From the NCBI GenBank assembly GCA_021383565.1, contig CP079699.1, forward strand, positions 1,984,001-2,048,000: a DNA stretch of 64,000 bases, read 5' to 3'. The DNA comes from Levilactobacillus brevis. Its GTDB lineage: Bacteria; Bacillota; Bacilli; Lactobacillales; Lactobacillaceae. Under the pieces are notes generated by a model. That model was given only the letters and a program-made list of their open reading frames with translations, searched no databases and was not told the DNA's origin. This document shows positions 7,088-38,713 of the stretch, in pieces (positions within the stretch are counted from its first letter, which is position 1; each line of letters opens with the position of its first letter). Position numbers and translations under genes: made by a program.

Positions 7088-7456
7088 GTCTAACGATTAT
7101 CGAAGTATCTGGTGGTTGGTGCTGGTCGCCTTACCGTTCACCAAATTTGGTCTGGAACGCGGTGGGGAGGACGGCAAAAGCCAAAGAACGGGCTTTTGCC
7201 TCGCTTTGAGCCGATGAACCACGGCTGAGACCAAATTTGACTCACTCACGGCTACCTGACAAATAACGTGTTACCATGGTTAAACATCACCATACCAACA
7301 ATGCGACTGTCACAGCTTCTCAAGCCATGGGTGATCCCCATAGCGTCGAAATCTCTGGCAGATACAGGTGGCCAGCAACAACTAATCTAGATGCCTTCAC
7401 CCCCTGCTAGCTAGAAAATTTTCACTAGTTTGAATTTCTCGTCTTTAATTGCCATC
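7088..7456. other. Non-coding structured element (copy A) downstream of the GH31 gene
   Basis: No supported gene. A 12-bp inverted repeat CAAATTTGGTCT near 7141-7152 pairs with AGACCAAATTTG near 7230-7241 and encloses a second hairpin (GGCAAAAGCC with GGCTTTTGCC). Looser outer arms lie near 7098-7118 and 7370-7400. Positions 7315-7371 align without gaps to 19601-19657 (44 of 57 identical; 12 of 13 differences are transitions). That pattern suggests a repeated, structured RNA or DNA element rather than chance. Confidence 0.6.
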
Positions 7457-7510
7457 AAAAAAATTAAAGCGCGCCATCATCGGCTACAAAGCCAGTGGTG
7501 GTGTGCTTTT
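7457..7510 (+). terminator. Hairpin with T-run, probable terminator
   Basis: AAAGCGCGCCATCATCGGC pairs through several G-U pairs with GCCAGTGGTGGTGTGCTTT, followed by TTTTT. It probably ends transcription from the alpha-glucosidase operon or from element A. Confidence 0.6.
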
Positions 7511-7570
7511 TGTATTCCGTGAGATGGGCTAAATTCCTTATTTTACCAAGAAAAGCCAAATAAATCGGCC

Positions 7571-7615
7571 AACTTGATTCGCATCAAGTTAATCATTTCC
7601 GCTTCCAGGCATAAT
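7571..7615 (+). promoter_or_regulatory. FNR/Flp-type box at -41.5 with promoter for the P1B ATPase
   Basis: AACTTGATTCGCATCAAGTT at 7571-7590 contains the exact FNR consensus TTGAT-N4-ATCAA with 8-bp arms. The -10 is CATAAT at 7610-7615, with its first base 29.5 bp from the box centre, exactly the spacing seen at 984-1028. Lactobacilli commonly carry FNR-like (Flp) regulators; binding here is inferred. Confidence 0.8.
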
Positions 7616-7676
7616 GGATACATAAACAAGGAACGAAACAGTTAAACCAAGCAAACAAAGAAAGGATCGTTATCTT

Positions 7677-9578
7677 ATGGCATTCCAACGTTATATTTAT
7701 GCTCACACTAATCCCATTACCTTCTGGTCGGCCGGGCTCATCATCCTCGGTTTTCTCAACACCTGGTTCACCAAGGTACCTTATGTGACCGACACCGCCT
7801 GGATCATTGCCTCCGTCATCGCCGCAGCCCCCATTGTTCTACGGGCTATCAGCGCGTTGAAGGCCAAGGTCTTCAGTATTGAATTATTGGTCGGCATCGC
7901 AGTTATCGGGGCGTTTGCGATTGGTGAGTTCGAAGAATCAGCTATTGTTACTTTCTTATTTCTCTTCGGATCTTACCTGGAACAAAAGACGCTGGCCAAG
8001 ACACGGGGCGCCATCCAATCCCTGACCGAAATGGCACCAACTACAGCATTGCTGGTCAACGATGACGGCGAAACCGAAGAAGTCGACGTCGATGATTTGG
8101 AAGAAGGTAACGTGGTCCTGGTTAAGGCCGGGGGCCAAGTTCCCGTCGATGGTAAGGTTGTCAACGGTACCGGTTACGTCAATGAATCCTCCATTACTGG
8201 TGAGTCTCGGCCCATCAACAAGGCTAATGGCGATGGCGTCTACTCCGGTGCCATGGTTGAAAGCGGCACGCTACAGATTGAAGCCACACAAGTTGGGGAC
8301 GAAACGACTTTCTCCAAGATTATCGAATTGGTCGAAGAAGCACAGGATACCAAGTCACCCGCTGAAAAGTTTATTGATAAATTTGCCCAATACTACACGC
8401 CAGCCGTTCTGGTGATTGCTATTCTGGTCTTCGTCTTCTCTCGTGACCTGCGCTTAGCCATCACGGTACTGGTTCTGGGTTGCCCTGGAGCCTTGGTTAT
8501 CGGTGCTCCCGTCTCCAACGTTGCGGGGATCGGTAACGGGGCAAAGAACGGGATTCTGATTAAGGGGGGCGACGTGGTCGATAGTCTCTCCAAGGTTGAT
8601 ACGATTGTCTTTGATAAAACGGGAACACTGACCACGGGGAAGATGGACGTGGCCGGCATGAAGCAGTACACGGACGATGACAGCCTACTAGGAGCCGTCG
8701 CTCAGGTTGAACAAACCTCCGATCACCCACTGGCAACGGCGATTACGACACATCTGGCCGGTAAGATTGCAAGCGACGCGCCAACCATGACGACCGACAC
8801 CATCAAAGGCCGCGGCATGATCGGCCAGTGGCACGACGAACCCCTCTACGTTGGGAACGCCGCTCTACTGAAAGACAACGGAATTACCCTAACCGATGCG
8901 CAATTGGTTGATTTACACGAGCTGCAAGACGATGGTCAATCCACGGTTCTAGTCGGCTATCAAGGTAAGTTGGCCTTCATCCTCGGGGTGGCCGATACGG
9001 TTCGGACCGAAGTCCCCGCCGCCCTCGCTGCTCTGAAACGCCAAGGAATCAAGCACCTGGTTATGTTAACGGGGGACAACCACGCAACTGCTCAAGCCGT
9101 TGCGGAATCACTGGGAATCGATGAAGTTCACGCTGATTTACTCCCAGCTGATAAGGTAACCTTCGTCAAGAAGTTCCAGGACATGGGACGGAACGTGGCC
9201 TTCGTTGGTGACGGGATTAACGATAGTCCTTCCCTCGCGACGGCCAGTGTCGGTATCGCCATGGGTGGCGGGACCGACGTCGCCATCGAAACGGCGGATG
9301 TGGTCCTGATGCAATCTAGCTTCACTGCCTTGAATCATGCGGTTGGTTTAGCCAAGAAGACGGCGGCCAACACCAAAGAAAACATCACCATCGCCATCGC
9401 CACCGTCATCTTCCTGCTGATTGGTCTAGTCTACGGTTACATCTACATGGCCAGTGGGATGTTCGTCCACGAAGCCTCCATCCTGGTGGTTATCTTCAAC
9501 GCGATGCGCCTGATTGGGTACCATCCCCACGTTGACAAGCCAACGAAGCAACCCGTTCAGCAGTTGGCCACGAATTAA
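7677..9578 (+). CDS. Heavy-metal-translocating P1B-type ATPase
   Basis: A 633-residue pump. Seen in order: N-terminal membrane helices with no HMA domain, the actuator loop TGES (about residue 177), the transport helix with C269-P270-G271, phosphorylation motif DKTGTLT (D313), the HP locus SDHPL typical of P1B pumps, MLTGDN, and GDGINDSP near 515. It couples ATP hydrolysis to export of a transition metal. The CPG membrane motif is not the usual CPC (Cu/Zn/Cd) or SPC (Co), so specificity is open. AAAGGA precedes the ATG. The FNR/Flp box it shares with the HMA-dps genes suggests the free HMA protein supplies what the pump lacks. A zntA, cadA or copB symbol would be a guess. Confidence 0.92.
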   Translation: MAFQRYIYAHTNPITFWSAGLIILGFLNTWFTKVPYVTDTAWIIASVIAAAPIVLRAISALKAKVFSIELLVGIAVIGAFAIGEFEESAIVTFLFLFGSYLEQKTLAKTRGAIQSLTEMAPTTALLVNDDGETEEVDVDDLEEGNVVLVKAGGQVPVDGKVVNGTGYVNESSITGESRPINKANGDGVYSGAMVESGTLQIEATQVGDETTFSKIIELVEEAQDTKSPAEKFIDKFAQYYTPAVLVIAILVFVFSRDLRLAITVLVLGCPGALVIGAPVSNVAGIGNGAKNGILIKGGDVVDSLSKVDTIVFDKTGTLTTGKMDVAGMKQYTDDDSLLGAVAQVEQTSDHPLATAITTHLAGKIASDAPTMTTDTIKGRGMIGQWHDEPLYVGNAALLKDNGITLTDAQLVDLHELQDDGQSTVLVGYQGKLAFILGVADTVRTEVPAALAALKRQGIKHLVMLTGDNHATAQAVAESLGIDEVHADLLPADKVTFVKKFQDMGRNVAFVGDGINDSPSLATASVGIAMGGGTDVAIETADVVLMQSSFTALNHAVGLAKKTAANTKENITIAIATVIFLLIGLVYGYIYMASGMFVHEASILVVIFNAMRLIGYHPHVDKPTKQPVQQLATN

Positions 9579-9610
9579 AACAGTTGAATAGAAGCCGATA
9601 AATTATCGAA

Positions 9611-9656
9611 AAAGAGTCCACCAAACGTTGGGTTATCAACGCTTGGTGGACTCTTT
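9611..9656. terminator. Bidirectional terminator between convergent genes
   Basis: A 20-bp stem with one mismatch and a 6-nt loop lies between the ATPase gene and the facing secreted-protein gene. T-rich tracts occur on both strands. Confidence 0.85.
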
Positions 9657-9681
9657 GGGTTTACCTGTTTAATGTTTCATT

Positions 9682-10497
9682 TTAGCCATAATCGTTAATG
9701 ATCCCGGAGAAGTAGGGCTTGCTGTTGACCGTGTAATTATCCCAACTACCACCCCAATAGTCATCACCAAAGTAGCGGCGACCGGTGGTCTTCAAATTCT
9801 TAATCTTAATCTGATACGTATGCTTGCCAACCTTTTTGCCGGGTAGTCCCTTGATGTACTTGTTGTAGCGAACCGTGGTGGTGTTGCCCTTGACCGTGGT
9901 CTTGGTCATCTTGGCCGAGGCGGTCGGCTTGTAGACTTCCATCCCATTGCCAAACTTAACTTGCATTTCCCCACCGCTATCGTACTTACTCATCGCCGCA
10001 CGACTGTAGTATTGGATGTAGTTGTCCAGCGTCAGATAAAACATGGGTGACGCAAAGCCACCGTGGCGATCTTCTTTGAATCCATTTCCTTGTCGCAGGA
10101 CGGTACCGCGAATCGGCGCCTTTAGACTGACCTTCTTGAAGTTGGCCTTCGTTAAAGGTACCGAGTCCGTCATGGTAAAGGCCAATTTTTTCAGCCGATT
10201 GTAGTGCACCGCACCGGACGTAAACGAGGCCTTAACGACCGAACTTCCCTGATTCTGCGTAGAGCTCATCACAAACAGCAAGGATCCCTTCTTCTTGAGC
10301 AACGGACGATAGGTCCGCCCATGCTTCTGCGAGATGCCCACGTAAACGTTGCGTTTAGCCCGGACGTACGTGCCAAACTGTGGAGTCAAATACTTGCTGG
10401 ATGCCTGTGCAGTAGTGGCTGTCGTGGCGATCCCCATCCCCACGAACGCACCAACCAGCGCGACCCCCGCAACTAGCTTACCTCTAAGATTTAACAA
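9682..10497 (-). CDS. Secreted protein of unknown function, 271 aa
   Basis: The start is TTG at 10497, supported by AGGGGG nine bases upstream; no ATG fits. Residues 1-32 form a signal peptide (charged RGK, hydrophobic core, cleavage after AQA). The mature protein is basic, rich in Lys, Tyr, Gly and Thr, without membrane anchor, LPXTG or enzyme motif that I recognise. Its C-terminal half is beta-like with many aromatic residues. Basic secreted proteins of this type occur in lactobacilli and may bind the cell surface, but that is inference. It has its own promoter region and is separated from the next gene by a terminator. Confidence 0.8.
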   Translation of the reverse strand: MLNLRGKLVAGVALVGAFVGMGIATTATTAQASSKYLTPQFGTYVRAKRNVYVGISQKHGRTYRPLLKKKGSLLFVMSSTQNQGSSVVKASFTSGAVHYNRLKKLAFTMTDSVPLTKANFKKVSLKAPIRGTVLRQGNGFKEDRHGGFASPMFYLTLDNYIQYYSRAAMSKYDSGGEMQVKFGNGMEVYKPTASAKMTKTTVKGNTTTVRYNKYIKGLPGKKVGKHTYQIKIKNLKTTGRRYFGDDYWGGSWDNYTVNSKPYFSGIINDYG

Positions 10498-10635
10498 ATC
10501 TAATTACCCCCTAGAATATATGTGTTACACAAGTATTATACAACGAATGGAAAGGGCTCACACAACCCAATTTAAAGAGCGAGAGTCACTCTTATTTTTT
10601 TCCGAAAGTGGACGCTCGCTGGTTAAACCCGAATA

Positions 10636-10673
10636 AAAACTGGCGATTTGTGAAAACACAAATCGCCAGTTTT
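10636..10673 (-). terminator. Terminator of the TKK-repeat secreted protein gene
   Basis: A perfect 17-bp stem (10636-10652 with 10657-10673), AAAA loop, and a T-run on the minus strand. Confidence 0.9.
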
Positions 10674-10700
10674 TATTAATATACTATATAAAGCCTAAGC

Positions 10701-11546
10701 TTACTTCGTAAAAGTCCACTTAGCAGCTGGGGCAACGCCGGCCTTAACGGCAACGACCTTGTTCTTGCTGTTAACGATCTTGAACTTCTTAGCAGAAGTG
10801 AACCGTAAGTAAAGCGTCTTAGAAGTCTTGGAACCCTTAGGTGTGTAAGTGATCTTCCAGAACGTTGGGGTCTTAGCATTTACGCTGTACTTTGCGTAAG
10901 AAACTAACGTCTTAACCTTCTTACCATTCTTGTAAAGGTATTGGTTAAAACCAGTCTTTTGGCTGAAGACGATCTTTTGTGAATACTTGTTAGCCGTGTT
11001 GGACTTCCAAGTACCAGTAGGCGTCTTTACCGTAAAGCTAGCAGCCTTCTTGGTTGAAGCCTTTTTAGCCGTGGCCTTTTTGGCAGTCGTCTTTTTAGTT
11101 GTTGTCTTTTTAGTTGTTGTCTTTTTAGTCGTCTTCTTCGTAGCGGTCTTCTTAGTCGTGGCCTTCTTCGTAGCAGCGGCCTGAACCCGAATAATCCGGT
11201 AGAATGACGTCTTCGTCTTTGGATTTGTTGCGTAAACGTAGACGTTGGCGTTCTTCTTCAACGTCTTAGCTAACTTAACCGTGTATTTTCCAGTCTTCTT
11301 AGAAGCCGTTGCGCTCCCCAGATTAGCCTTAGCGTTCTTGCTCTTCTTGACCGTGATCTTAGACCCTTTAGTGGCCGTCCCCGTGATCGTCTTCGAATTG
11401 CTGTAGATCGCCTTTACACTCAAGTTTGGACCCACGTGCGTTGCGGCATGTGCCGTCGTAGCTGGCGTAATCGCCGTAGCGGGAACCGTAGCACCGATAG
11501 TAAATAAAGTGACCAAACCAGTCATCGCAACCATAAATTTCTTCAT
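10701..11546 (-). CDS. Secreted Ig-like protein with Thr-Lys-Lys repeat linker
   Basis: 281 residues. A signal peptide runs to about residue 35 (AHA-A). Residues 40-123 look like a bacterial Ig-type domain (TITGTATKGSKITV). Residues 126-167 are an almost uninterrupted run of TKK/TTKK/AKK units, and the last 110 residues form a basic beta-rich domain ending KWTFTK. It has no LPXTG or transmembrane anchor. The strongly cationic linker suggests binding to teichoic acids or other anionic wall polymers, which is inference. AGGAAAAC precedes the ATG. The TKK tract is repetitive at DNA level (11046-11171) and likely to vary in length between strains. Confidence 0.82.
   Translation of the reverse strand: MKKFMVAMTGLVTLFTIGATVPATAITPATTAHAATHVGPNLSVKAIYSNSKTITGTATKGSKITVKKSKNAKANLGSATASKKTGKYTVKLAKTLKKNANVYVYATNPKTKTSFYRIIRVQAAATKKATTKKTATKKTTKKTTTKKTTTKKTTAKKATAKKASTKKAASFTVKTPTGTWKSNTANKYSQKIVFSQKTGFNQYLYKNGKKVKTLVSYAKYSVNAKTPTFWKITYTPKGSKTSKTLYLRFTSAKKFKIVNSKNKVVAVKAGVAPAAKWTFTK
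11046..11171 (-). repeat. Coding tandem repeat (Thr-Lys-Lys units)
   Basis: Degenerate in-frame repetition of ACTAAAAAG-type units encodes residues 126-167 of the secreted protein. Confidence 0.85.
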
Positions 11547-11866
11547 TGTTTTCCTGACCCCTTATATTAACCGACCAAAACGCCGGTAAATTATTTTCTA
11601 ACCGCCTTGTAGTATAACAGATTTTTGACAAACTGGTGTCAATTTTATAACGAGGTTGGGGCTTCTTTAACAACACTTAAAACAAATTAACGACTTATCC
11701 ATTCTTTAGCCGCTGATTAGCCGATAACGACCGCCATAACGGCCATAAGCGACGATTGTCCTTTAGTTCTGGTACCGTTTCCAAATTGTGGTAAGCTAAA
11801 GCTGAAATCTCTCCATTTCCACCCTAACGGAAACGAAACCTGCCAGAAAAGGAGTGTGGTTCTCTG
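11547..11866. promoter_or_regulatory. Divergent intergenic region; promoter for the TKK protein
   Basis: On the minus strand an extended -10, TGTTATACT (hexamer at 11611-11616), and a TTGACA (11637-11642) lie 20 bp apart, a long spacer. Upstream of the GH28 gene no clear promoter is visible. No gene is supported here. Confidence 0.5.
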
Positions 11867-13114
11867 ATGAAAATTAATATTCTCGACACCGCCGTTTATG
11901 CTGAAATCAAGTCGAACGCTACCGCCACTATTCAGGCCGCCATTGACCAATGCGCCGCTACAACTGGCGGTGAGGTCACCATCCCCAGCGGACAATACGT
12001 GATCGACGGCCTCCAGCTCAAGAGCGGCGTCACCTTAAACCTGGAGGCGGACGCCATTCTACGGGGCAGTGGTCACGAGTCTCAGTACATCCATCGCCCA
12101 GGTCCCTTCGAGCTGAACCGCAATCAGACGCCAATCTCGGCTCTGATTCACGCCAAGGGCCAACGCAACATCGGCATCACTGGTGAGGGACAGATTGACG
12201 GTAATTATCAAGCTTTCATTTATCCCAATCAGCATGACGCCGTCCATCTCAAATTCTACAAATACCCCCGCCCCATGACCGTTTACTTTGAAAATTGTAC
12301 CAATGTTACGCTGCAGCAGCTGACCATCACGAACGCCCCCTTCTGGACCATTCACCTCGTGGGCTGCCACAATACGGAGATTAGTCATATTGCCATCCAC
12401 AATGAATTACGAATGCCCAACACCGACGGCATCGACATTGACCGGAGCCAGAACACCTACATCCACGATTGTGAAATTATCACCGGTGACGACGCTATCT
12501 GCCCCAAGTGTACCGAGGAGACCGCCCAATATGGAGATTGCACCGGCCTATTGGTTAACCATTGCTTCCTAAAGTCCCAGAGCGCCGCCGTAAAATTTGG
12601 GAGCAGTAGCTTCGGCAACTTTGAAAATTGTCAATTCCACCACCTGACCATCAAGGATACCAACCGCGGGCTGGCTTTCCAACTCCGCGATCCCGGTAGC
12701 GCCAGCAACATTCGGTTTGAAGATATTACCATTGTGACGAAGCCCTACAGTCAAGAATGGTGGGGCGCCGGCGAACCCATCTACATCACCCTCCTACCGC
12801 GTGATACGGCTACGGACCTCCGCCAGCAGTCCATTCGCAACGTCATCTTCAAAAACATCATGTGCGAAGCCGACAACGGGATTTTGGTCGCCGCCGACGT
12901 TCCCGCCGCCTTTAGTCAGATTACCTTCGAAGACGTGACCCTTAATCTCCGCCACAACGTCGACACCCCCGTGTCCGTTGACCTCCGCCCTTGGCAAGGT
13001 GCGGCAAAGCTTCAACGTCCCCTACGCTTGGTGACCAACTTGGCTGGTGCCGACTTAACCTTTAAAAACGTTCAGGGACGATTTCCGAACCGACTGACAG
13101 TGACGTTACCGTAA
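11867..13114 (+). CDS. Glycoside hydrolase family 28 (polygalacturonase-like), intracellular
   Basis: 415 residues with no signal peptide, folding as a right-handed beta-helix with many short imperfect repeats. Two of the GH28 signature sites are clear: N185-T-D-G and D208-D209 in TGDDAIC, the catalytic aspartates. The usual GHG and RIK motifs are not recognisable; KFGSSSFGN occupies the GHG region. GH28 enzymes hydrolyse alpha-galacturonosyl bonds in pectin or rhamnogalacturonan. A cytosolic form would act on imported oligosaccharides, but no pectin transporter is adjacent. AAGGAG precedes the start. The changed motif means the substrate may not be a galacturonide. Confidence 0.85.
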   Translation: MKINILDTAVYAEIKSNATATIQAAIDQCAATTGGEVTIPSGQYVIDGLQLKSGVTLNLEADAILRGSGHESQYIHRPGPFELNRNQTPISALIHAKGQRNIGITGEGQIDGNYQAFIYPNQHDAVHLKFYKYPRPMTVYFENCTNVTLQQLTITNAPFWTIHLVGCHNTEISHIAIHNELRMPNTDGIDIDRSQNTYIHDCEIITGDDAICPKCTEETAQYGDCTGLLVNHCFLKSQSAAVKFGSSSFGNFENCQFHHLTIKDTNRGLAFQLRDPGSASNIRFEDITIVTKPYSQEWWGAGEPIYITLLPRDTATDLRQQSIRNVIFKNIMCEADNGILVAADVPAAFSQITFEDVTLNLRHNVDTPVSVDLRPWQGAAKLQRPLRLVTNLAGADLTFKNVQGRFPNRLTVTLP

Positions 13115-13192
13115 CGGAAAATCAAAATGTTTGTATCTTACTTACAAAAAGTCTATCTTTATCATCAGACAAAAAAGGTGGTTCGATACTTA

Positions 13193-14035
13193 ATGGAAAA
13201 AACATTTACTTTCGATAACGATTTAACGGTCAATCGCTTAGGCTACGGGACCATGCAGCTCCCCGGCAAGGGTGTCTGGGGGCCTTCCGCCGATCCCGAC
13301 AATGCGCCTAAGGTCATTGAGACAGCGATCGACAACGGCGTCAACTTCATTGATACTGCCGATGCCTACGGGCCGTTCTACTCTAACCTTTACCTTCGAG
13401 AGGCTTTGCAAGCCCGTCCCGACAGCCACGTCATGGTAGCCACCAAGGTTGGCCAAACGCGGCAAGGTCCCGACCAATGGACCCCAACTGGTGTGCCCGC
13501 CTACCTACGTCAACAAGTGGAACTCAACCTGTTCACGTTAGCCCTCGACCATCTCGACTTGCTTCAGCTCCACCGGGTCGACCCCACGGTACCTTTTGAA
13601 GACCAGATTGGCGTCCTCAAAGACATGCAGGACGAGGGTAAGATCAAGCATATCGGGCTCAGCCAGGTCTCTGTTGACCAACTCAAGGCTGCCCAAAAGA
13701 TTGCCCCGATTGCTTCTGTTCAAAATATGTACAACCTCAGCAACCGCAAGGACGAAGACGTCTTAAACTACGCCGAATCCCAACACATTGCCTTCATTCC
13801 GTGGTTCCCACTAGCTACCGGACAACTCATCACAAACCCAACGCTCACCAACATCGCCAAGAAGTACGATGCCTCACCCGCTCAAATCGCCTTGGCCTGG
13901 TTACTGAAGCGTTCCGACGTGATTCTGCCAATTCCTGGCACTAAGTCCAGCGAGCATGAATTGCAAAACATTCACGCCCAATCCATCGACCTTAGCCAAG
14001 CTGATTTCGATGCTTTAAAGGCCTTAGCCGACTAG
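13193..14035 (+). CDS. Aldo/keto reductase, NADPH-dependent
   Basis: Start at ATG 13193 behind AAGGTGG, giving 280 residues; an ORF opening at 13127 has no ribosome binding site. AKR fold: cofactor barrel beginning LGYGTMQLPG, the catalytic Asp-Tyr pair in FIDTADAYG, catalytic Lys in VATKVG, and His in LLQLHRVD. The C-terminal PGTKS/EL motif contacts the NADPH phosphate. It reduces a small aldehyde or ketone; the physiological substrate is unknown. It follows the GH28 gene by 78 bp and may be cotranscribed, then two terminators follow. Confidence 0.88.
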   Translation: MEKTFTFDNDLTVNRLGYGTMQLPGKGVWGPSADPDNAPKVIETAIDNGVNFIDTADAYGPFYSNLYLREALQARPDSHVMVATKVGQTRQGPDQWTPTGVPAYLRQQVELNLFTLALDHLDLLQLHRVDPTVPFEDQIGVLKDMQDEGKIKHIGLSQVSVDQLKAAQKIAPIASVQNMYNLSNRKDEDVLNYAESQHIAFIPWFPLATGQLITNPTLTNIAKKYDASPAQIALAWLLKRSDVILPIPGTKSSEHELQNIHAQSIDLSQADFDALKALAD

Positions 14036-14068
14036 TCCGCAAACTCAGATAACTTACTCGGCTGTCCT

Positions 14069-14162
14069 GTTGGGCCGTGACTTCTGTTGCCCAACACTAA
14101 TTTTTCATGAAACTATTTTACTGATCTCAACTCGTCTAACGTTACTTAGGCGAGTTTTTTTG
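14069..14162 (+). terminator. Two successive terminator hairpins
   Basis: First hairpin: TGTTGGGC (14069-14076) with GCCCAACA (14089-14096), then CTAATTTTT. Second: AACTCGTCTAA (14129) with TTAGGCGAGTT, then a run of T up to 14162. Confidence 0.8.
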
Positions 14163-14505
14163 TTAGACTACTGGTGATAGCGATTTCATAAGCAAGCCCG
14201 GTATGGCCTGCTTCCATCCATTTTCAAGTAGGCTAATTTGGCTTTCATGAAAACGTAGAAATCGTGAAATCATTGTTTTCATAGCAATGCAACCGGTTGT
14301 CTAATTTTTAAATTCTTGGTTTAAAAAGGTCGCATTTCACGACAAAGGGGCGTATAATAACTTCCGAAGTGGTCTAGACATACTTTCTGGGCAACTCGCG
14401 GATTCCCGAATGGTTGCCCCCATTCGTGGATAACCGATGCAACAGTCAATTTTTGGTAGACACTGCTCATATAACGGATTTAAACATTTAAGGAGTGACG
14501 ATCTC
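14163..14505 (+). promoter_or_regulatory. zwf promoter and long structured leader
   Basis: A -10 TATAAT lies at 14353-14358; the -35 is weak. The inferred transcript has a leader of about 140 nt. GGGCAAC (14389-14395) can pair with GTTGCCC (14413-14419), and an alternative pairing GAATGG/CCCATTC overlaps it, so two exclusive structures are possible. A 10-bp palindrome CAACCGGTTG lies upstream near 14290. No known riboswitch class is recognised. Confidence 0.5.
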
Positions 14506-15993
14506 GTGGCAACTGAACGTAAAGCTGTATTTCTATTCTTCGGGGGTACCGGTGATTTAGCTTACCGGAAACTCTATCCCAGTCTTTTCAACCTGTATCG
14601 CAAGGGTAACTTACGATCCCATTTCGCCGTCATCGGGACTTCCCGAGCCAAAATGGACGACGACAAGTTCCGTGCTGCTATCAAGAAATCCTTGGCAGAC
14701 AGCGGGAACCGGACCGACTCTAAGGAAGCTAACGACTTTATTTCCCATTTCTACTATCAAGACCATGATGTGACCGACACGGCCCACTACGCCGTCTTGA
14801 AGGACTTGATGGACAAGTTAGACAAGAAGTACAAGGCAGAAGGCCACCGGATTTTCTACCTATCAATGGCACCACAATTCTTCGGCACGATTGCCCAAGA
14901 CCTGAAGACTCAAGGCTTACTGTCCGACGGCAAGGACGCCTTCAACCGTTTGGTCATCGAAAAGCCATTCGGCCGAGACTACGATTCCGCCAAGCTCTTA
15001 AACGACGCCTTAAGCAAGTCCTTCGACGAAAACCAAATTTTCCGGATCGACCACTACTTGGGTAAGGAAATGATTCAAAACATCGAAGCACTACGGTTCG
15101 GCAACACCTTGGTCGAATCTCTGTGGAACAACCGGTACATCGACAACATTCAGGTCACGTTATCTGAAAAACTAGGTGTTGAGGAACGGGCTTCCTACTA
15201 CGACAACAGTGGGGCACTGCGGGATATGGTCCAAAACCATATCATGCAAATTGTCTCCCTGTTAGCCATGGAACAACCCGTGGCCTTCACGGATACCGAT
15301 ATCCGAGCTGAAAAGGTCAAGGCCTTACGGAGTCTACGCGTCTACAACGTGGCCGACGCCGCAACCAACTTTGTCCGCGGCCAATACGGTTCGATCAACG
15401 AACAAGCCGACTATCGGCACGAAGACAACGTCCCTCACGATTCAACGACTGAAACATTCGTTGCCGGGAAGTTGTTATTCGATAACTACCGTTGGTCCGG
15501 CACCCCATTCTACATTCGGACGGGGAAGATGTTGGCCGACAAGTTCACGCGGGTTGACGTCGTCTTCAAACGGCCACTCGTGGACATCTTCGCCTTCCCA
15601 CAGAGTCAAAACACGCCGCTGGCCGCCAACGTCTTGACGATCTTCGTTGAACCGCACGCTGGGTTCTCCCTGCAATTGAACGCCAAGACCAACGACACTG
15701 GCTTCTCCACGGAACCAATCAAGTTGGACTACCTGGTTGACGCCCAAAAGTCTAAGGATACGCCAGAACCATACGAACGCCTGCTTCATGACGTCTTGAA
15801 GGGTGACGGGACCAACTTCTCCAGCTGGCCAGAAGTTTCCTACGCTTGGAAGTTCGTGGATCAAATTCGCCGTGTTTGGGACTTACAAGAACCACAATTC
15901 CCTAACTACACGCCACATTCCATGGGTCCAGCCGCCGCTGAAGAACTTATTCAACGCGACCACCGGGAATGGGTTTACCGCTTAAACAACTAG
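14506..15993 (+). CDS. zwf: Glucose-6-phosphate 1-dehydrogenase
   Basis: Start is GTG 14506 with AGGAG ten bases upstream; an in-frame ATG at 14437 lacks a site. The product is 495 residues, normal for the family. N-terminal dinucleotide motif GGTGDLAYRK is at residues 13-22 and the active-site signature RIDHYLGKE begins at about residue 180. It oxidises glucose 6-phosphate to 6-phosphogluconolactone with NADP+ or NAD+, the entry to the phosphoketolase route of heterofermentative lactobacilli. gnd follows three genes later. Codon use is strongly biased, suggesting high expression. Confidence 0.97.
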   Translation: MATERKAVFLFFGGTGDLAYRKLYPSLFNLYRKGNLRSHFAVIGTSRAKMDDDKFRAAIKKSLADSGNRTDSKEANDFISHFYYQDHDVTDTAHYAVLKDLMDKLDKKYKAEGHRIFYLSMAPQFFGTIAQDLKTQGLLSDGKDAFNRLVIEKPFGRDYDSAKLLNDALSKSFDENQIFRIDHYLGKEMIQNIEALRFGNTLVESLWNNRYIDNIQVTLSEKLGVEERASYYDNSGALRDMVQNHIMQIVSLLAMEQPVAFTDTDIRAEKVKALRSLRVYNVADAATNFVRGQYGSINEQADYRHEDNVPHDSTTETFVAGKLLFDNYRWSGTPFYIRTGKMLADKFTRVDVVFKRPLVDIFAFPQSQNTPLAANVLTIFVEPHAGFSLQLNAKTNDTGFSTEPIKLDYLVDAQKSKDTPEPYERLLHDVLKGDGTNFSSWPEVSYAWKFVDQIRRVWDLQEPQFPNYTPHSMGPAAAEELIQRDHREWVYRLNN

Positions 15994-16011
15994 AACTTTT
16001 AACCAAAACTA

Positions 16012-16057
16012 AGAAGCCGGACCACGTCATCTCAAGCGATGTTGTGGTCCGGCTTCT
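16012..16057 (+). terminator. Terminator after zwf
   Basis: AGAAGCCGGACCAC pairs with GTGGTCCGGCTTCT in a long stem; the T tract afterwards is weak (GCTTTAC). Confidence 0.75.
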
Positions 16058-16113
16058 GCTTTACTAATATCTACTACTTATAACTCGTAAATTCACTCAC
16101 GGAGGTCTTTCAT

Positions 16114-16860
16114 ATGGAATTTAATGTTCAACGCGACGGCTTAACGCTAGCCGGCATTTACCAACCCGCACCCCAACCCAACGGCACCATCGCCATCCTC
16201 ATGCACGGTTTCACCGGTAATCGGGGCTACACACCGACCGAACTGCTGGTCCAACTGGCCGAGCGGTTGCGTGCCGTAGGCGTGGGGACCGTTCGCTTTG
16301 ACTTCAACGGTCACGGCCACAGCGACGGACGGTTCGCCGACATGACGGTTCTCAACGAGATTGCCGACGCCCAGGCCGTTTTAACCGCCGTCCAAACGCG
16401 CTTGCATCCCCAACAAATCGACCTGTTAGGCCACTCTCAGGGCGGCGTGGTCGCCAGCATGCTGGCCGGCTACTATCCTGACCTGATTCATAAGCTGGTC
16501 CTGCTGGCCCCCGCCGCCACACTCAAGGACGACGCGCTGGCCGGTCACACCCGCGGACTGGACTACGACCCCCACCACATTCCGGCCACCTTACCGCTAT
16601 CCGCCAGTCAAACGCTCGGCGGGTTCTATCTCCGCACGGCCCAGCTTCTACCAATCTATGAAACCGCGCAGGCCTTCACCGGTCCCGTCTGCTTAATCCA
16701 TGGCAAGGCGGATAAGATTGTCGCGCCCCGCGCCTCTCAACGCTACGCCGATGTCTACTCCAACGCGACGTTCCATTTGCTACCGGGGGCCAGTCACCGA
16801 CTCGACGGCGATGCTCGACCGACCGTTTTGAAATTAGCCACCGACTTCATTCAAGACTAA
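16114..16860 (+). CDS. Alpha/beta hydrolase, cinnamoyl (feruloyl) esterase-like
   Basis: 248 residues, cytoplasmic. Oxyanion motif HGFTGNRG starts at 31. The nucleophile S108 sits in GHSQGG, the acid is probably D200 (GKAD) and the base H228 (GASH). The HGFTGN opening, GHSQGGVVASM and the lid region between them match lactobacillus cinnamoyl esterases such as LJ0536, which cleave ferulate, caffeate and chlorogenate esters from plant material. The substrate is inferred from this likeness. GGAGG precedes the ATG. It lies alone between the zwf terminator and the facing GNAT gene, whose stop is 10 bp away. Confidence 0.88.
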   Translation: MEFNVQRDGLTLAGIYQPAPQPNGTIAILMHGFTGNRGYTPTELLVQLAERLRAVGVGTVRFDFNGHGHSDGRFADMTVLNEIADAQAVLTAVQTRLHPQQIDLLGHSQGGVVASMLAGYYPDLIHKLVLLAPAATLKDDALAGHTRGLDYDPHHIPATLPLSASQTLGGFYLRTAQLLPIYETAQAFTGPVCLIHGKADKIVAPRASQRYADVYSNATFHLLPGASHRLDGDARPTVLKLATDFIQD

Positions 16861-16870
16861 TTCGCCACAA

Positions 16871-17326
16871 TTATTGCGCTAACCGTAACGCCGGCTTGTC
16901 CATGCGGACGTGCGGTGTCCCGTGAAAGTTAAAGCTTGCCCCCTGAGCGCGATACCCAAACTTTTCATAGAAGCCTTGCTTGTCGACCTGAGCTTCGATA
17001 CTGATGGGTAGTCCCGGATAATCGCGACGAATCTCCGCTTCAATCTGGCTCATGAGCTGGCGCCCCAAGCCCTGACCCCGTGCTTCTGGAATCGTCAGTA
17101 CCCGACCAAACGTCACGTGGCCCTGTTCCGTGAAAATTCGGGCGTATGCGACCAGTCGCCCGTCCCGAAAACCCATCACGTGATGGGCAACGAGATCGGT
17201 CTCGTCAACTTCCTGGTACACCCGATTTTGGGCAATCACAAACGTTCTAATACGTTCATATGCAACTTTATACAAATTTTCTGCGGATAAATCCGTAAAC
17301 GTATTTATTAACCATTTGACTGTCAT
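16871..17326 (-). CDS. GNAT N-acetyltransferase, ElaA-like
   Basis: Start at ATG 17326 behind AGAAGG, giving 151 residues; a longer reading would run into the divergent marR. The ElaA-type opening (WLINTFTDLSAENLY) is followed by the acetyl-CoA motif VLTIPEARGQGLGRQLM. It transfers acetyl from acetyl-CoA to an amine on an unknown acceptor. It is divergent from the MarR gene across 79 bp and is the probable target of that regulator. Confidence 0.85.
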   Translation of the reverse strand: MTVKWLINTFTDLSAENLYKVAYERIRTFVIAQNRVYQEVDETDLVAHHVMGFRDGRLVAYARIFTEQGHVTFGRVLTIPEARGQGLGRQLMSQIEAEIRRDYPGLPISIEAQVDKQGFYEKFGYRAQGASFNFHGTPHVRMDKPALRLAQ

Positions 17327-17350
17327 AATAAGCCTTCTCTGTGTTAAAAT

Positions 17351-17364
17351 ATGCTTATTAGCAT
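17351..17364. promoter_or_regulatory. Probable MarR operator in a divergent promoter
   Basis: ATGCTTATTAGCAT is an imperfect palindrome with arms ATGCT and AGCAT in the 79-bp gap between the GNAT and marR genes, overlapping TAAAAT. The placement fits autoregulation; binding is inferred. Confidence 0.5.
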
Positions 17365-17405
17365 CCCACATTTTAAATTCAAATGCAACTAAAAAAGGAG
17401 AAAAC

Positions 17406-17840
17406 ATGCCCAATTCTTTTCGGAGCATCGGCCTGATTGCCCGCGCCACCTCGGAGATTGGTAATCAACTTTTCCAACGGGCCGACCTTCAAAACAACCA
17501 ATTCATCTATCTTATGCGGATCGTTGAAAATCCCGGTATCACCCAAACCGACCTCGCCACCCAACTCTACGTGGACCCGTCGACCTGTCTCCGAGCCGTG
17601 CGCAAGCTCATCGACCACCAGTACGTGACCCGCCAGACGGACGCCCACAACAAGAAGGCTCGGCCATTGATGGCAACCGCCAAGGGACGGGCCGCCTATC
17701 CCGAATTGCAGGCGTATGAACAGCAGATTCTAGCCATTGGAACCCACGGTCTATCGGCAGGAGAAGCCCTCCTACTAGAGGAATTACTGGCTAAAGTTGC
17801 GACCAATGTTCAGGAGTATCAAGCCACGCAGGACGACTAG
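17406..17840 (+). CDS. MarR family transcriptional regulator
   Basis: Start at ATG 17406 with AAAGGAG seven bases upstream gives 144 residues, typical for MarR. The winged helix-turn-helix spans about 45-105 (ITQTDLATQLYVDPSTCLRAV then the wing NKKARP), flanked by dimer helices. It probably represses itself and the divergent acetyltransferase and responds to a small ligand. It is followed by the gnd promoter. Confidence 0.88.
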   Translation: MPNSFRSIGLIARATSEIGNQLFQRADLQNNQFIYLMRIVENPGITQTDLATQLYVDPSTCLRAVRKLIDHQYVTRQTDAHNKKARPLMATAKGRAAYPELQAYEQQILAIGTHGLSAGEALLLEELLAKVATNVQEYQATQDD

Positions 17841-17985
17841 GTGACGGAGCAACGAAATTTTTTTACAAAAAGATTAATTATTTTGAAAAAAACCAGTCAA
17901 ATCAGTTCCTTTTTAAATTGTTCAATGCTACACTAGGAGTTGGTAAAACCGAAATCAATCTTAACAAAGTAAAGGAAGGTTTCTA

Positions 17986-19425
17986 ATGGCAGAAAAAGCT
18001 AATATTGGTGTTGTTGGTATGGCTGTCATGGGCAAGAACTTAGCCCTGAACATTGAAAGCCGCGGATACACGGTTGGGATCTACAACCGCTCCGCCAACA
18101 AGACGGAACAAGTTATGAAAGACCACAGCGAAAAGAAGTTAGTTCCAAGTTACACGGTGGAAGACTTCGTTAACTCTTTGGAAACGCCACGGCGGATTCT
18201 TTTGATGGTTAAGGCTGGTAAGCCAACTGACGCCGTTATTCACGAATTGCTTCCTCTGTTGGACAAGCACGATGTCCTCATTGATGGTGGGAACACGAAC
18301 TTCCACGACACGATGGCTCGTAACGCCGAACTGGACAAGTCCGGTATCAACTTCATCGGTATGGGTGTTTCCGGTGGTGAACTGGGTGCCTTACAAGGTC
18401 CTTCCTTGATGCCTGGTGGCCAAAAGGAAGCTTACGACTTAGTTGCCCCAATCTTGGAAAAGATCGCGGCTAAGGCTGACCAAGACGGCAAGCCATGTGT
18501 ATCTTACATCGGCCCTAACGGTGCTGGTCACTACGTTAAGATGGTCCACAACGGTATCGAATACGGTGATGAAGAGCTGATCGATGAAAGCTACAACATC
18601 ATGCGTAACGTTGCCGGCATTTCCATTGACAAGATGGCTGACATCTTCAAGGAATGGAACAAGGGTGAACTTGACAGTTACTTGGTTGAAATCACCGCTG
18701 ACATCTTAACCCGTAAGGATGACTTAGGTGACGACAAGAACTTATCTATCTTGGACGCTATCTTGGACCGTGGTAACAACAAGGGTACTGGTAAGTGGAG
18801 TTCTGAAGACGCCTTAGACGTTCAAGTTCCACAATCAGTTATCACTGAAGCCGTTTATGCCCGTTACATCTCCATGTTGAAGGACGAACGGGTTAAGGCT
18901 TCTAAAGTCTTAGCACCTGCTGAAAAGCAAGGTAAGGTTGACACCGGTGACGAAACTGAATTCGTTGAAAAGGTTCGCCAAGCCCTCTTCTTTGGTAAGT
19001 TAATGAGTTACGCTCAAGGCTTCGAACAACTCCGGTTTGCTTCTGAAAAGAACAACTGGGACTTGAAGTTCGGTGAATTAGCACAAATCTGGCGTGCCGG
19101 CTGCATTATCCGGGCCCAATTCCTGCAAAACATCACGGATGCCTTCGACAAGGATCCTAACTTGACCAACTTACTCTTTGATGACTACTTCAAAGAAGTT
19201 GCTGCTAAGTACCAACAATCAACGCGTGACGTTGTTGCGATGGCCGTTCAAGCTGGTATTCCTGTACCTAGCTTATCTGCTGCTATCACTTACTACGACA
19301 GCTACCGTGCTGAAGTCTTGCCAGCTAACTTGCTGCAAGCACAACGGGACTACTTCGGTGCCCACACCTACGAACGGCGTGACCGCCCTGGTGACTTCCA
19401 CTACTCATGGTACGAAGAACAATAA
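17986..19425 (+). CDS. gnd: 6-phosphogluconate dehydrogenase (decarboxylating)
   Basis: 479 residues, full length. N-terminal NADP domain [15 protein letters not shown], substrate motif GVSGGE near 125, and the family signature [12 protein letters not shown] near 257. It converts 6-phosphogluconate to ribulose 5-phosphate, CO2 and NADPH, the step after zwf and the CO2-producing step of heterofermentation. It has its own promoter with a -10 TACACT at 17929-17934 and AAAGGAAGG before the ATG. Codon use is the most biased in the window, indicating very high expression. Confidence 0.98.
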
Positions 19426-19442
19426 ATCATTAAACCTGATTG

Positions 19443-19471
19443 AAAAAGACGCCGTTATGGCGTCTTTTTTT
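19443..19471 (+). terminator. Terminator after gnd
   Basis: AAAAAGACGCC, loop GTTAT, GGCGTCTTTTT: an 11-bp perfect stem with a T-run. Confidence 0.95.
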
Positions 19472-19481
19472 AGTTGCATCG

Positions 19482-19733
19482 CTGAAGGTTGAAAACCAGA
19501 GATGGAGACGCTGTAAGCTGACGTTTTGAGTCAACTTACAGCGTGGGACGTGTTTGGAGACTGGCGGATTTTGCCAGGCTTCGAACCGAGCCGGAGGACC
19601 GCTTCTCAGGCCACAGGCAGTCCCCACAGTGCCGGAATCTCTGGCAGCCGCAGGTGGTGTTGATGACTAGTTTGATGACGATTATCCCTGTCAGCTGAGG
19701 ATCGCGGCTTGTTCGCAAACTTTCAACCTTCAG
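19482..19733. other. Non-coding structured element (copy B)
   Basis: A 252-bp element bounded by a perfect 13-bp inverted repeat, CTGAAGGTTGAAA (19482-19494) and its complement (19721-19733). Inside are a CGCTGTAAGCTGAC hairpin (19509-19543), CTGGC/GCCAG (19561-19577), and CCAGAGAT (19496) complementary to ATCTCTGG (19637). Positions 19601-19657 align without gaps to 7315-7371. No supported gene. Confidence 0.65.
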
Positions 19734-19762
19734 TTGTATAGCTGAAAGTCTCTTCAGCGCAT

Positions 19763-23475: not shown

Positions 23476-23493
23476 ATGACTATAGAATAAATC

Positions 23494-23664
23494 AGAAGCT
23501 GTTAGGTGAGGCTCCTATACGGAAAATGCTACTGCTCAGAAACGTCGAGAAACGCCAATGAGTCAGCTGTTCAGGTCAGATTAAGGCCTGTTCTAATGTA
23601 GCTGTTAAAGAAACACTAACTACGCCGTATAGTGCTAAAACTCAACGACTGGCTATCAGTTCAC
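23494..23664 (+). ncRNA. M-box (ykoK) magnesium riboswitch
   Basis: The sequence carries the M-box conserved blocks in order: GTTAGGTGAGGCTCCTATA, then GCTACTGCTCAGAAACGTC, AAACGCCAATGAGTCA, TAATGTAGCTG, GCCGTATAGTGCTAAAACTC and the closing ACGACTGG. It is followed by a strong terminator (23681) and by a ribosome binding site and ATG at 23761. M-box RNAs sense Mg2+ and switch off Mg2+ transporter genes. The gene behind it here is broken. Confidence 0.93.
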
Positions 23665-26113: not shown

Positions 26114-26230
<117 letters not shown>

Positions 26231-26304
26231 CTACTGAGAGCTTATTCTCTCAAAACTAGACATCATCAATTACTTTCCAACGGAAACAACCACGTTTTCA
26301 ACTT

Positions 26305-29221
<2,917 letters not shown>

Positions 29222-29431
29222 TAACGATTACGTCGTAATCGCTGATTAATTGAGTATTAGCGATATAAACTAATTAAAAAACTCAAAAATACGCAGTTGT
29301 TTCTCGGTTTAATTATCTTAATAATTAAAGGAAAATAATTGATAATATCTAGTTTTCAAAGAACAAGTTTGAGAGGTAAGCCCCTCAAAACTGACCATTG
29401 TTTCGACAAAGTATGTGTAGCCTCCGTATAT

Positions 29432-31001
<1,570 letters not shown>

Positions 31002-31180
31002 TAGATGATGTGCTTGAATAGCTCATCGATTGTTGTTACATTTTTAAAAGCGAATTGACTTCGCAAATATTGTTTGGGTTCGATATAAATATCAAACCGC
31101 CCTACACATATTTGGTTTGTCGAAACAATGTTCAGTTTTCAAAGGTCTACCCGTTATCCGCTCTCGCAGACAACTTAATA

Positions 31181-31383
31181 ATCATATCATTTGAACTATA
31201 TGATGTCAACAAGAAATTTTAAATCATTATTTCTTATCGGTTGCCGCTCTAATGAAGCAGCTCAGTTAATATACCATTTTGTTAACCTGCCTGTCAACAA
31301 GCAATTTAACTTTTCTTATTAATGAGTCGTCTTCGCCAATCGACAACTTTAATAATATATCATACGAAACTGATCACTGTCAA
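31181..31383 (-). promoter_or_regulatory. Three tandem promoters of rRNA operon 1
   Basis: Minus strand, each with TTGTTGACA. P nearest 16S: -35 31204-31209, TATGAT 31181-31186, spacer 17. Middle: 31292-31297, TATATT 31268-31273, spacer 18. Distal: 31378-31383, TATATT 31354-31359, spacer 18. Confidence 0.88.
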
Positions 31384-31638
31384 CAAATATTTCAAAATAA
31401 TCTAAAGTCCTGTGAAAGCTTGTGAAAAGGCTACCCTACTTAGGGCTTAGAATTCCGCCGATACGTGTTAACTCAGTCGTCACCCAATTCGACCGCTTCC
31501 GGCTAACGTTATCCGCAGCTTCATCATTATACCCAATATCTCGCTATCAGTAACTACACAGAAACTCAAGGCTGAACTAAACCACTGACCTTCTCTGATA
31601 GGTATTCATACCCCAACAACCCAGCATATAAAGCTTAA

Positions 31639-32209
31639 TTACCGGATTCCTTCGACCACCTCAACTAAACTTGTCGCTTGGAAAAGATCAACTACCCCAC
31701 ACCGAGGAAGAACGGTATCCTCCCCCAAGGTCAACTGCTGGGCCTTCAAACGGAGCGTCGTATAATAACTAAGATTTCCATATTTCCACCGTAGAAAAAG
31801 CATATTAACCGGATCCCATTTTACGATCAGCAATAGAGACTTAAATGCCCGTATCAGGCTACTGGAAAAGCCTTCTCCCATAAGGAAAATACCAATTTCA
31901 ATAGCAATGGCTGCACTCGTCATTTTGGCGACAACTTGCTAATAGAAGAAAGATGCTGATCACTAAGCGTCCACCGTATAAAACTAACAACACATTCGTC
32001 CCTAGATTGCCTAACCGGTGTTGATGATACACATAGGCCGTTTGCCAATGAATCGCTGGGTTCCCGACAGATTTTAAAGCGAGGACTATTGCCCACATGA
32101 GGAGGAAGGCACTATAGTTGAGAATTAATAAGAACTTCCCAACCTAGCTCTTGTGCCGTTGATTGATCCGAACCACTAATGGTTTAATCGTGCCGTAGTC
32201 AAATTTCAT
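31639..32209 (-). pseudogene. Decayed ABC-2 type permease
   Basis: ATG 32209 follows TGGAGGGCC and reads MKFDYGTIKPLVVRINQRHK, then an in-frame TAG where Trp is expected. The frame stays open with two hydrophobic segments to about 31898, then shifts and continues to 31639 (WDPVNMLFLRWKYGN, as in ABC-2 exporter permeases). At least one nonsense mutation and one frameshift, so not functional. Confidence 0.7.
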
Positions 32210-32290
32210 GGCCCTCCAGAACACACTAACGACAGACAATAACAGCGTGGCCCGCTGAAAACCAACACAACCCGACGAAACATACGATTC

Positions 32291-32421
32291 TTATTTGTCG
32301 AGTACAGTGCGACACGTGGCTAAAGCGAGGATTCCCATGAGAAGTCCTAGAACGATGAGGGCACCCAGGTCAGGGGCTAACATCTAACTTTAAAAATCTC
32401 TTGTTGTCGTAACCGCCACAT
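32291..32421 (-). pseudogene. Remnant of a second ABC permease
   Basis: AGGAGGGGG and ATG 32421 begin MWRLRQQEIFKV, the start of a membrane protein. The frame then breaks and only one hydrophobic helix (LGALIVLGLLMGILALA) remains before a stop at 32291. Most of the gene is deleted. Confidence 0.6.
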
Positions 32422-32440
32422 AGTTACTCCCCCTCCTGGG

Positions 32441-33200
32441 TCAATAGCCGTAGTAGAATCGTTTCAAATTTTCCGTTTTAATAACAGGGGTAGCTCCACA
32501 CTGTGTGATTTCATACTCCGTGCTTAGGATGTGCTGGCCAAGCTGATTATCCGTTGTCCGAAATGCCAGGACTAGGTGGGTCGATGTCTTAACCTGTACG
32601 CTGGTTTGCGGTAGTTGAACCTTTCCTTGCTCAATCTAAGTCACCCGATCAATGATCTTTTCCCGTTCACTTAAAATGTGACTGGAAATTAAGTAAGAAG
32701 GTTATTCCTACGTTTGCCAATCAGACAATTAAATCTCGTGGCCGCTTCACCGATTGTGAACCCAACTCACTAAATAACCCGTGATGGTTACCTTACTGGC
32801 ACCATGGCGATTCCCAACTTTTGCTTCATTCCCAATGAATACCGTTTGACGGTTTGCTGAATAAGTCGTTACTTGCAGTGTCTGTGTGTTCTAAGCCAGT
32901 TGCGTTAATTCATTTGTCATCAGCTATAGGGGGTGTCCCCCATTCGAAATGGATAAATCACTGACCGCTCAATCAGGGATTCCACCTTCTGAGTGACAAC
33001 TGTGTGATCACGAATCGAAACAGGCTAACCCGCGATGCAAAATGTGCTCAGCATCAGCTGAGATCAGTCCGAGTAGTGTTTTCATAATTGTCATTTTCCC
33101 AGCATCATTGTGCCCAACTAACCCTACAATTTCCCCTTAGAAAAGAAAAGTTGATAGCTTGTAAAATAACCTGATGACAAAAGAACTTTACGTAAATCAC
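32441..33200 (-). pseudogene. Decayed ABC transporter ATP-binding gene
   Basis: Starts at GTG 33200 (VIYVKFFCHQVILQAINFSF), frameshifts, then gives the Walker A region GEIVGLVGHNDAGKMTIMKT with two damaged positions (N-D for N-G, M for T). Later the linker region YSLGMKQKLGIAMV appears, then SSHILSEREKIIDRV, a TAG stop and IEQGKVQ. The Walker B segment is deleted. It is of the BcrA/YtrB exporter type and preceded the two permease remnants. Confidence 0.8.
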
Positions 33201-33791
33201 CCGGACATCACCACTATTATGGCGTCGACCTGACCACATTCCATACCGTTCCGGTGGCAACATAAGTCCACTGGTGGGGATTGGCTTTCTTTGCAATCAT
33301 CAGTTTTATCAACGGGTACTTAAATGCTTTCCCAATGGACTTTGACTTCGCACCGACTTGTTAGGCCGTGAAAATCCGGTTACATATTGCTTAGAGAGTT
33401 GTGGCTGCCGCGATTCGCTAGATCATAATGCTTTAACATCACACAAGACCCCAGTCACATTCTCTAAACATCGGGAATATAACCGGGTTTGTTTGTTAGC
33501 ATTAACCACTTGATTGGCCCTGAAGCAGTTTCACAGACACGGACTTGCAACCATTCAATCGTAGATGGCCAGTTACTCATTACTTACGTTTAAACTCAAT
33601 AACTACTGCTTAAGGCCATCACTTTTTAGTTTACAGTTCGCTACAACAATCATTATGGGAGTACAGTTATTGAGCACCTAATGTTCCTTGCTTCAAATGA
33701 TCTCCGCAATGAGTGGCCTCCGAATGACTTTCGACCAAATCCGATTTTTCTTACAGTTCTTATCTGTTCGGTAGCTTTTAAAAATCTACAC
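33201..33791. other. Degenerate sequence upstream of the ABC remnant
   Basis: AT-richer than the neighbours, with many stops in all frames. Short open stretches on the minus strand (such as TNKPGYIPDV) look protein-derived but I cannot identify them. Confidence 0.4.
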
Positions 33792-33794
33792 AAA

Positions 33795-33819
33795 AAAGAA
33801 CCCAATCACTGGGTTCTTT
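33795..33819 (-). terminator. rRNA operon terminator, copy 2
   Basis: The same AAAGAACCCA / TGGGTTCTTT hairpin as copy 1. Confidence 0.9.
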
Positions 33820-33824
33820 CGTTC

Positions 33825-33941
<117 letters not shown>

Positions 33942-34015
33942 CTACTGAGAGCTTATTCTCTCAAAACTAGACATCATCAATTACTTTCCAACGGAAACAA
34001 CCACGTTTTCAACTT

Positions 34016-36931
<2,916 letters not shown>

Positions 36932-37141
36932 TAACGATTACGTCGTAATCGCTGATTAATTGAGTATTAGCGATATAAACTAATTAAAAAACTCAAAAAT
37001 ACGCAGTTGTTTCTCGGTTTAATTATCTTAATAATTAAAGGAAAATAATTGATAATATCTAGTTTTCAAAGAACAAGTTTGAGAGGTAAGCCCCTCAAAA
37101 CTGACCATTGTTTCGACAAAGTATGTGTAGCCTCCGTATAT

Positions 37142-38713
<1,572 letters not shown>

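Follow-up and report, generated by a model that had tools for sequence, protein, structure and literature searches.

The two structured intergenic sites in the window, the whole 64,000-nucleotide stretch of Levilactobacillus DNA analysed here (G000:C1:1984001-2048000, from a genome of 2.68 Mb, G000, called the own genome below), both arose by deletion from copies of one interspersed non-coding element that measures about 595 bp when complete. The element is MITE-like, with inverted ends, target duplications of 7-8 bp and many copies, and its body is an outward-facing inverted pair of diverged modules of about 185 nt. Covariation among the modules shows, in statistical terms, that their modelled fold is constrained. 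Because evolution has kept the shape of the fold across several genera of lactobacilli, our data suggest that it has a job. The initial annotation, which had offered either a MITE-like repeat or an undescribed RNA, is partly supported as a whole. Its first guess is borne out by the inverted ends, the duplications and the many copies, and its second, taken as an undescribed folded unit, by strong covariation and the lack of any Rfam match at threshold.

Two shortened copies in the window

The initial annotation had aligned two plus-strand cores, 7315-7371 in copy A and 19601-19657 in copy B, and its counts are correct: over 57 ungapped positions, 44 are identical, 12 are transitions and one is a transversion. 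In 40 trials with first-order shuffles (two shuffled windows each), the top score for the A core was 28-32, and the runner-up in the real window was 28 on the plus strand and 30 on the minus strand. Both cores are indeed intergenic, placed between long ORFs of the window. Regions A and B fold better than dinucleotide shuffles (z -3.20, 0 of 100 as good, and z -5.15, 0 of 200 as good, respectively). The extents of the two copies had to be corrected, to 7111-7412 for A and 19482-19733 for B, with an nhmmer profile built from full copies of the own genome.

Copy B is a shortened element of 252 bp on the plus strand that has lost internal sequence and kept both ends (19482-19733; nhmmer match 19494-19733, E 5.4e-74). 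Its 13-bp ends are perfect, as had been noted: CTGAAGGTTGAAA at 19482-19494 on the plus strand, an end shared by many copies, and TTTCAACCTTCAG at 19721-19733 on the minus strand, placed by sequence and copy alignment. They are flanked by the halves of an imperfect 8-bp target duplication, TTGCATCG at 19474-19481 and TTGTATAG at 19734-19741, which match at six of eight bases (row L031). Copy B retains most of module M2, without M1. The M2 fold of 185 nt, its 5' strand partly deleted, lies at 19481-19655 on the plus strand (covariance model R1, 147.4 bits, E 3.5e-42), and the 57-base core is its hairpin H3 plus the 3' strand of the outer stem. Directly before the insertion, at 19444-19471 on the plus strand, is an intrinsic-terminator-like hairpin with T-run of the upstream gene (ORF 17986-19425); the T-run ends 6-9 nt from the element junction (row L031). 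A full copy in genome G022 (L166) occupies the same interval, behind gnd, with its junction about 10 bp further on, which gives no ground for claiming a single insertion event.

Copy A is internally deleted. The element profile aligns to it at positions 68-312 and 467-565 and the stretch between these is absent, so copies A and B share the core and its 3' neighbourhood; that part of the earlier pairing stands, but the blocks as wholes are not common to both. The left part, at 7111-7307 on the plus strand, is module M1 with a remnant of spacer (nhmmer E 3.1e-42), and R1 matches it on the minus strand at 7167-7243 (19.1 bits, E 3.4e-4). The right part, at 7312-7412 on the plus strand, consists of the 3' end of M2 and the right side of the element (E 6.5e-10).

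Copies, ends and placement of the element

A search for further copies in this and related genomes had been proposed, and many were found. In the own genome, a 91-base query around core A had 31 matches at E <= 1 (the weakest look like chance), a 281-base query around B had 48, and a 621-base query containing a full copy had at least 51 at E <= 0.01 (40 of 170 first-look candidates scored). By DNA similarity, the element is present in 26 of 35 genomes of the genus, to which L. hammesii, L. cerevisiae and sp. HBUAS51381 belong together with the own genome.

Seventeen own-genome copies could be aligned with both ends. They measure 252-639 bp (10 of them 572-639) and appear to lack a transposase gene of their own. 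The terminal inverted repeat CTRAAGGTTGAAA has 83 own-genome matches within one mismatch, against 10 for a reversed control pattern. The ends vary between species, since in the relative G030 the commonest variant is CTAAAGGTTGCAA instead of one ending in GAAA. Among 102 candidate end pairs, which include alternative pairings within one copy, 10 have an exact target duplication of 7 bp and 9 one of 8 bp (shuffled means 0.28 and 0.15, maxima 3 and 2), and none has an exact duplication of 5, 6, 9 or 10 bp. Eight of these 19 duplications are in the own genome and 11 in five other genomes. Target duplications of this kind are a mark of DDE-type transposition. Transposition of the element is shown by its marks. 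Empty sites in relatives, which had been proposed as a check, were seen in part: two intervals are occupied in one species and free in another (G010, G022), but the flanks are too diverged for a base-exact junction.

Neither the own genome nor the end pairs inspected in G030 and G032 yielded a transposase with matching ends. The own genome has a single long end pair (G000:C1:812023-814160, L240:524-2661), which was rejected as autonomous parent: what interrupts this element copy is an IS3-like element, whose two ORFs have HTH_Tnp_1 and rve domains. Likewise rejected was G032:1557389-1560959, a partial copy with two long ORFs that were judged non-transposase from their first residues only. Nor did a recurrent neighbour gene emerge from clustering 1042 ORFs, the 18 largest clusters being common families by eye. 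Carriage as plasmid or phage cargo was rejected from blastn searches, which are too insensitive for the strongly diverged modules of other genera. Neither the end-bearing form nor the second class described below matched any of 72,556 plasmid records, and the second class matched none of 50,697 phage records.

R1 finds M2 in full copies. It also finds M1, as a match to the opposite strand with E from 5e-13 to 2e-8, in every full-copy locus but L213 (13 of 14). M1 is taken as a homologue of M2 from R1 matches on the expected strand together with shared words read by eye, as the antisense strand of strong modules likewise receives about 20-50 bits from R1 and such scores alone are no proof of homology. 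With 150 of 690 candidates scored, at least 124 modules were counted in the own genome at E <= 0.01; they form at least 89 positions. Among the modules listed, and with one overlapping R1 match set aside, 34 neighbours lie less than 400 nt apart: 33 are minus-plus, that is outward, one is plus-plus and none is inward. Outward pairs of a second class (L325-L344) do not have the element ends. The right module is followed in at least 9 of the 20 loci by a tail resembling GGCGAACGGTAAGGCGGCCAG, just as M1 is on its own strand, and by eye none of the 20 has a target duplication. In L. cerevisiae, several modules form arrays at L082:2015-3339, L123:88-643, L100:7352-7976 and L136:2780-3838; where these contain both strands, the minus-strand modules lie left of the plus-strand ones.

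Copies occupy intergenic positions, in many cases right after an intrinsic terminator and where two genes converge. Of 55 own-genome positions with callable neighbours, 30 are convergent, 22 tandem and 3 divergent, with none inside an ORF. In three named species and one MAG, 131 positions divide into 46 convergent, 70 tandem and 15 divergent; one further position (L069), outside the 131, fell within an ORF call. As a baseline, neighbouring ORF pairs at least 60 bp apart in the same loci, element sites included, number 77 convergent, 243 tandem and 80 divergent, and those of the window 7, 9 and 8. A terminator-like hairpin faces the element, with the end of its T-run within 30 nt of the junction, in 22 of 49 picked elements (within 10 nt in 16 of the 22), compared with 3.9% of 2063 random positions, a control that includes genes and thus overstates the excess, so that the true excess is smaller.

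Searching with R1 at E <= 1e-5 found modules in 105 of 397 Lactobacillaceae genomes, from 10 of 40 genera. Across the order, 13 of 295 genomes were positive, including one that does not belong to the family (E 9e-6). Nine gammaproteobacterial contigs among 120 stretches also carry the 20 fixed bases of the core pattern, against about 0.5 expected by chance in the whole collection: L063, L095, L103, L104, L107, L119, L140 and L149 from Pseudomonas and L133 from a gammaproteobacterium. These matches to the 24-base pattern were rejected as element copies, as none of the nine has a profile match; perhaps they represent a conserved coding stretch.

Fold of the module and change at single loci

Other species have mainly element positions 83-519, or 83-263 or 334-519 alone, which are M1 and M2. 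We collected 222 M2 and 159 M1 stretches, of which 203 and 137 passed a length filter; the filtered stretches show covarying stems. In an alignment of 70 M2-type modules from 21 genomes (A1; at most 25 gaps, pairwise identity below 86%), RNAalifold proposes 41 pairs, 39 of them with changes on both sides. Twelve pairs were added by hand from the same alignment, so that the resulting 53-pair structure was partly chosen on the data used for the covariation test. It describes a fold of about 185 nt with an outer stem, a hairpin H1, and a GGG/CCC stem that encloses H2 and H3, and the 57-base core is the 3' end of this module. A single sequence, L302:1501-1684, folds much like the 53-pair model.

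The covariance model and covariation test that the initial annotation had called for gave a strong signal. In the 53-pair structure 93.8% of cells are paired versus 79.8 in shuffles, both-side changes occur in 46 of the 53 pairs versus 29.0, and covariation is 0.413 versus 0.169 in shuffles and at most 0.080 when the structure is slid. None of 500 shuffles was as high on any of five covariation measures; related sequences can beat shuffles without having structure, and the slid control keeps relatedness. The covariation exceeds what relatedness gives, a hallmark of functional structured RNAs.

The 41 pairs of A1 contain 142 G-U and 34 A-C cells, or 91 and 33 after removal of pair 95-122, which is usually G-U. 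In seven genomes, rare changes in stems occur at 0.3-0.7 of their rate in loops. Such changes are rich in transitions in stems (transitions to transversions 49:13 in G000, 28:4 in G022 and 52:19 in G005), but not in loops (36:30, 21:23 and 28:43). To that extent the earlier argument, which took transition-only change between the two cores as a sign of folded RNA, stands. Resting on transitions alone, it had been put too strongly: in the own genome, G-U and A-C are about equal among rare stem changes (23:21; G022 16:9, G005 25:13, seven genomes summed 90:47). The strand preference for G-U over A-C holds overall and is absent among these young changes; the G-U excess appears over longer times, with 91:33 in A1 and 13:3 between orthologs.

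Nine ortholog comparisons were made on the R1 structure; they are not independent, since L317 and L224 were used twice and several loci are also in A1. The modules differ at 108 of 1602 sites, 54 of 945 in stems and 54 of 657 in loops. Changed pairs comprise 13 between Watson-Crick and G-U, 3 between Watson-Crick and A-C, 11 from one Watson-Crick pair to another with both sides changed, and 9 others. L317/L319 is the only comparison in which stems changed more than loops (18 of 105 versus 10 of 70), and the right module of L302/L306 is without stem change. The 160-nt flanks, some of them coding, differ at 323 of 1288 sites upstream and 183 of 1203 downstream. Since modules are better kept than flanks and show compensatory and G-U changes, these comparisons point to constraint on single copies. 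Gene conversion may contribute to the conservation of modules. In three genomes the rbfA-truB gene string holds a module pair (L121:1-894, L223:1075-1760 and L224:1380-2083). The right modules are alike in all three, and the left module of the MAG has a different sequence in the same orientation. Here one left module has been replaced, and gene conversion between copies could mimic conservation.

Known repeats and competing explanations

The statement that no named family fits has held up. At the two sites of the window, no Rfam 15 family reaches its gathering threshold. In four module loci there are six sub-threshold matches with E up to 5, one of which (tRNA-Sec, E 2.7) overlaps a module, and five further module loci have no match with E up to 1. 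In the literature searched, with subscription journals largely outside reach, we found no publication on this repeat; the accessible text of one source names L. johnsonii as its only lactobacillus (PMC2267715).

Folded MITE-like repeats are already known as a kind. ERIC, Correia/NEMIS and RUP are described, in the accessible part of a survey, as short, foldable, non-coding intergenic elements with inverted ends and target duplications, and ERIC is reported there to affect mRNA stability (PMC2229807). The Levilactobacillus element shares all these structural features. As far as that description goes, it differs in its inverted pair of branched modules of about 185 nt, its family-wide covariation and its 7-8 bp duplications, sequence having been compared via Rfam only. 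The bcr repeats of the Bacillus cereus group are, in the text available, intergenic and partly transcribed in UTRs, with bcr1-3 MITE-like and bcr10 and bcr18 conserved in structure (PMC3446304). Apart from the other genus, mobile ends and conserved fold belong there to different families, whereas both are found in one element here. The STAXI motif is a repeated structured unit for which the accessible text leaves RNA or single-stranded DNA undecided (PMC2864571); as portrayed there, it is a pseudoknot in two or three repeats close to genes for DNA handling rather than a mobile, interspersed repeat. Among folded MITE-like repeats the element described here is a new variety, since its modules are large and branched, are joined in a fixed outward pair, extend over ten genera and change in a compensatory way at single loci.

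REP/BIME palindromes often occur in inverted pairs. The accessible account of REPs has them as high-copy chromosomal palindromes of 20-40 bp with a terminal GTAG, often near IS200-type transposases (PMC3733652). The modules are likewise high-copy, inverted in pairs and placed behind genes. However, they measure about 185 nt with four or more helices, rather than being a unit of 20-40 bp with terminal GTAG, and they are not tied to a Y1 (RAYT-type) transposase: PF01797 matches occur in 23 of 35 genus genomes, and G002, G008, G020, G026 and G029 have strong modules with no such match, which rules out REPs with RAYT.

Our best explanation, whose chances of being right we judge to be about even, is a mobile element carrying an outward module pair whose modules are transcribed, fold as RNA and act in cis on neighbours. 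A and B would be deletion derivatives of this non-autonomous Levilactobacillus DNA element, whose form with CTRAAGGTTGAAA ends a trans-acting transposase would have moved. Sited behind genes, the modules would be transcribed within 3' regions, fold as RNA and affect adjacent transcripts in cis through 3' end protection, processing or decay, and, thanks to the outward pairing, a transcript arriving from either direction would contain one module in sense orientation. The RNA step carries the most doubt; an action in cis is suggested by position, by strand preference and by analogy with ERIC and bcr repeats. In a broader formulation, the modules, be they structured RNA or single-stranded DNA, would form a class not described before; present in about 100 copies per genome and built into an outward pair, they would have been spread by transposition over several Lactobacillaceae genera, be selected at single loci and act on the 3' ends of adjacent genes. 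We put this reading forward tentatively, as somewhat more likely to fail than to hold, its probability having been lowered because of the L317/L319 and G000 results.

An ordinary selfish MITE, its palindromes serving transposition only and decaying neutrally, with covariation reflecting a few master lineages or template switching between arms, would account for the inverted ends, target duplications and deletion derivatives, and also for the equality of G-U and A-C among rare stem changes in G000. It is unlikely given that stems change more slowly than loops in all seven genomes and G-U exceeds A-C in six, that orthologs show the G-U bias and double changes counted above, and that the long-range outer stem covaries like the hairpins. 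The module might also act as single-stranded DNA, as a substrate of replication, recombination or transposition, and not as RNA. The fold is strand-specific, G-T pairs are tolerated in DNA too, and through the outward pairing each strand carries one module. Against this, a position behind genes and next to terminators would suit RNA, or harmless parking, just as well, and the Y1 transposase gene is missing in 12 of the 35 genus genomes, several of them with strong modules; we consider this reading improbable. A further rival would make every module a trans-acting small RNA gene driven by its own promoter; this seems very improbable. The fold is complex and conserved and, by eye, full copies repeatedly show a TATAAT-like stretch around positions 75-90, yet this stretch lies outside the modules and reads into M1 antisense, and at least 124 diverged modules in one genome would be a surprising number for an RNA that acts in trans.

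If the fold is functional, much intergenic sequence in several genera of food lactobacilli would consist of one structured element that is not in Rfam 15, and the mRNA ends at many genes would probably be shaped by it. It would further provide an example from nature of a mobile element becoming a regulatory part, with compensatory change measurable at single loci. The covariance model and the ortholog comparison make the questions of function and of the passage from mobile to regulatory element directly testable.

The window also contains an M-box riboswitch at 23491-23660 and, at 26114-38713 on the minus strand, two consecutive sets of 16S, 23S and 5S rRNA genes.
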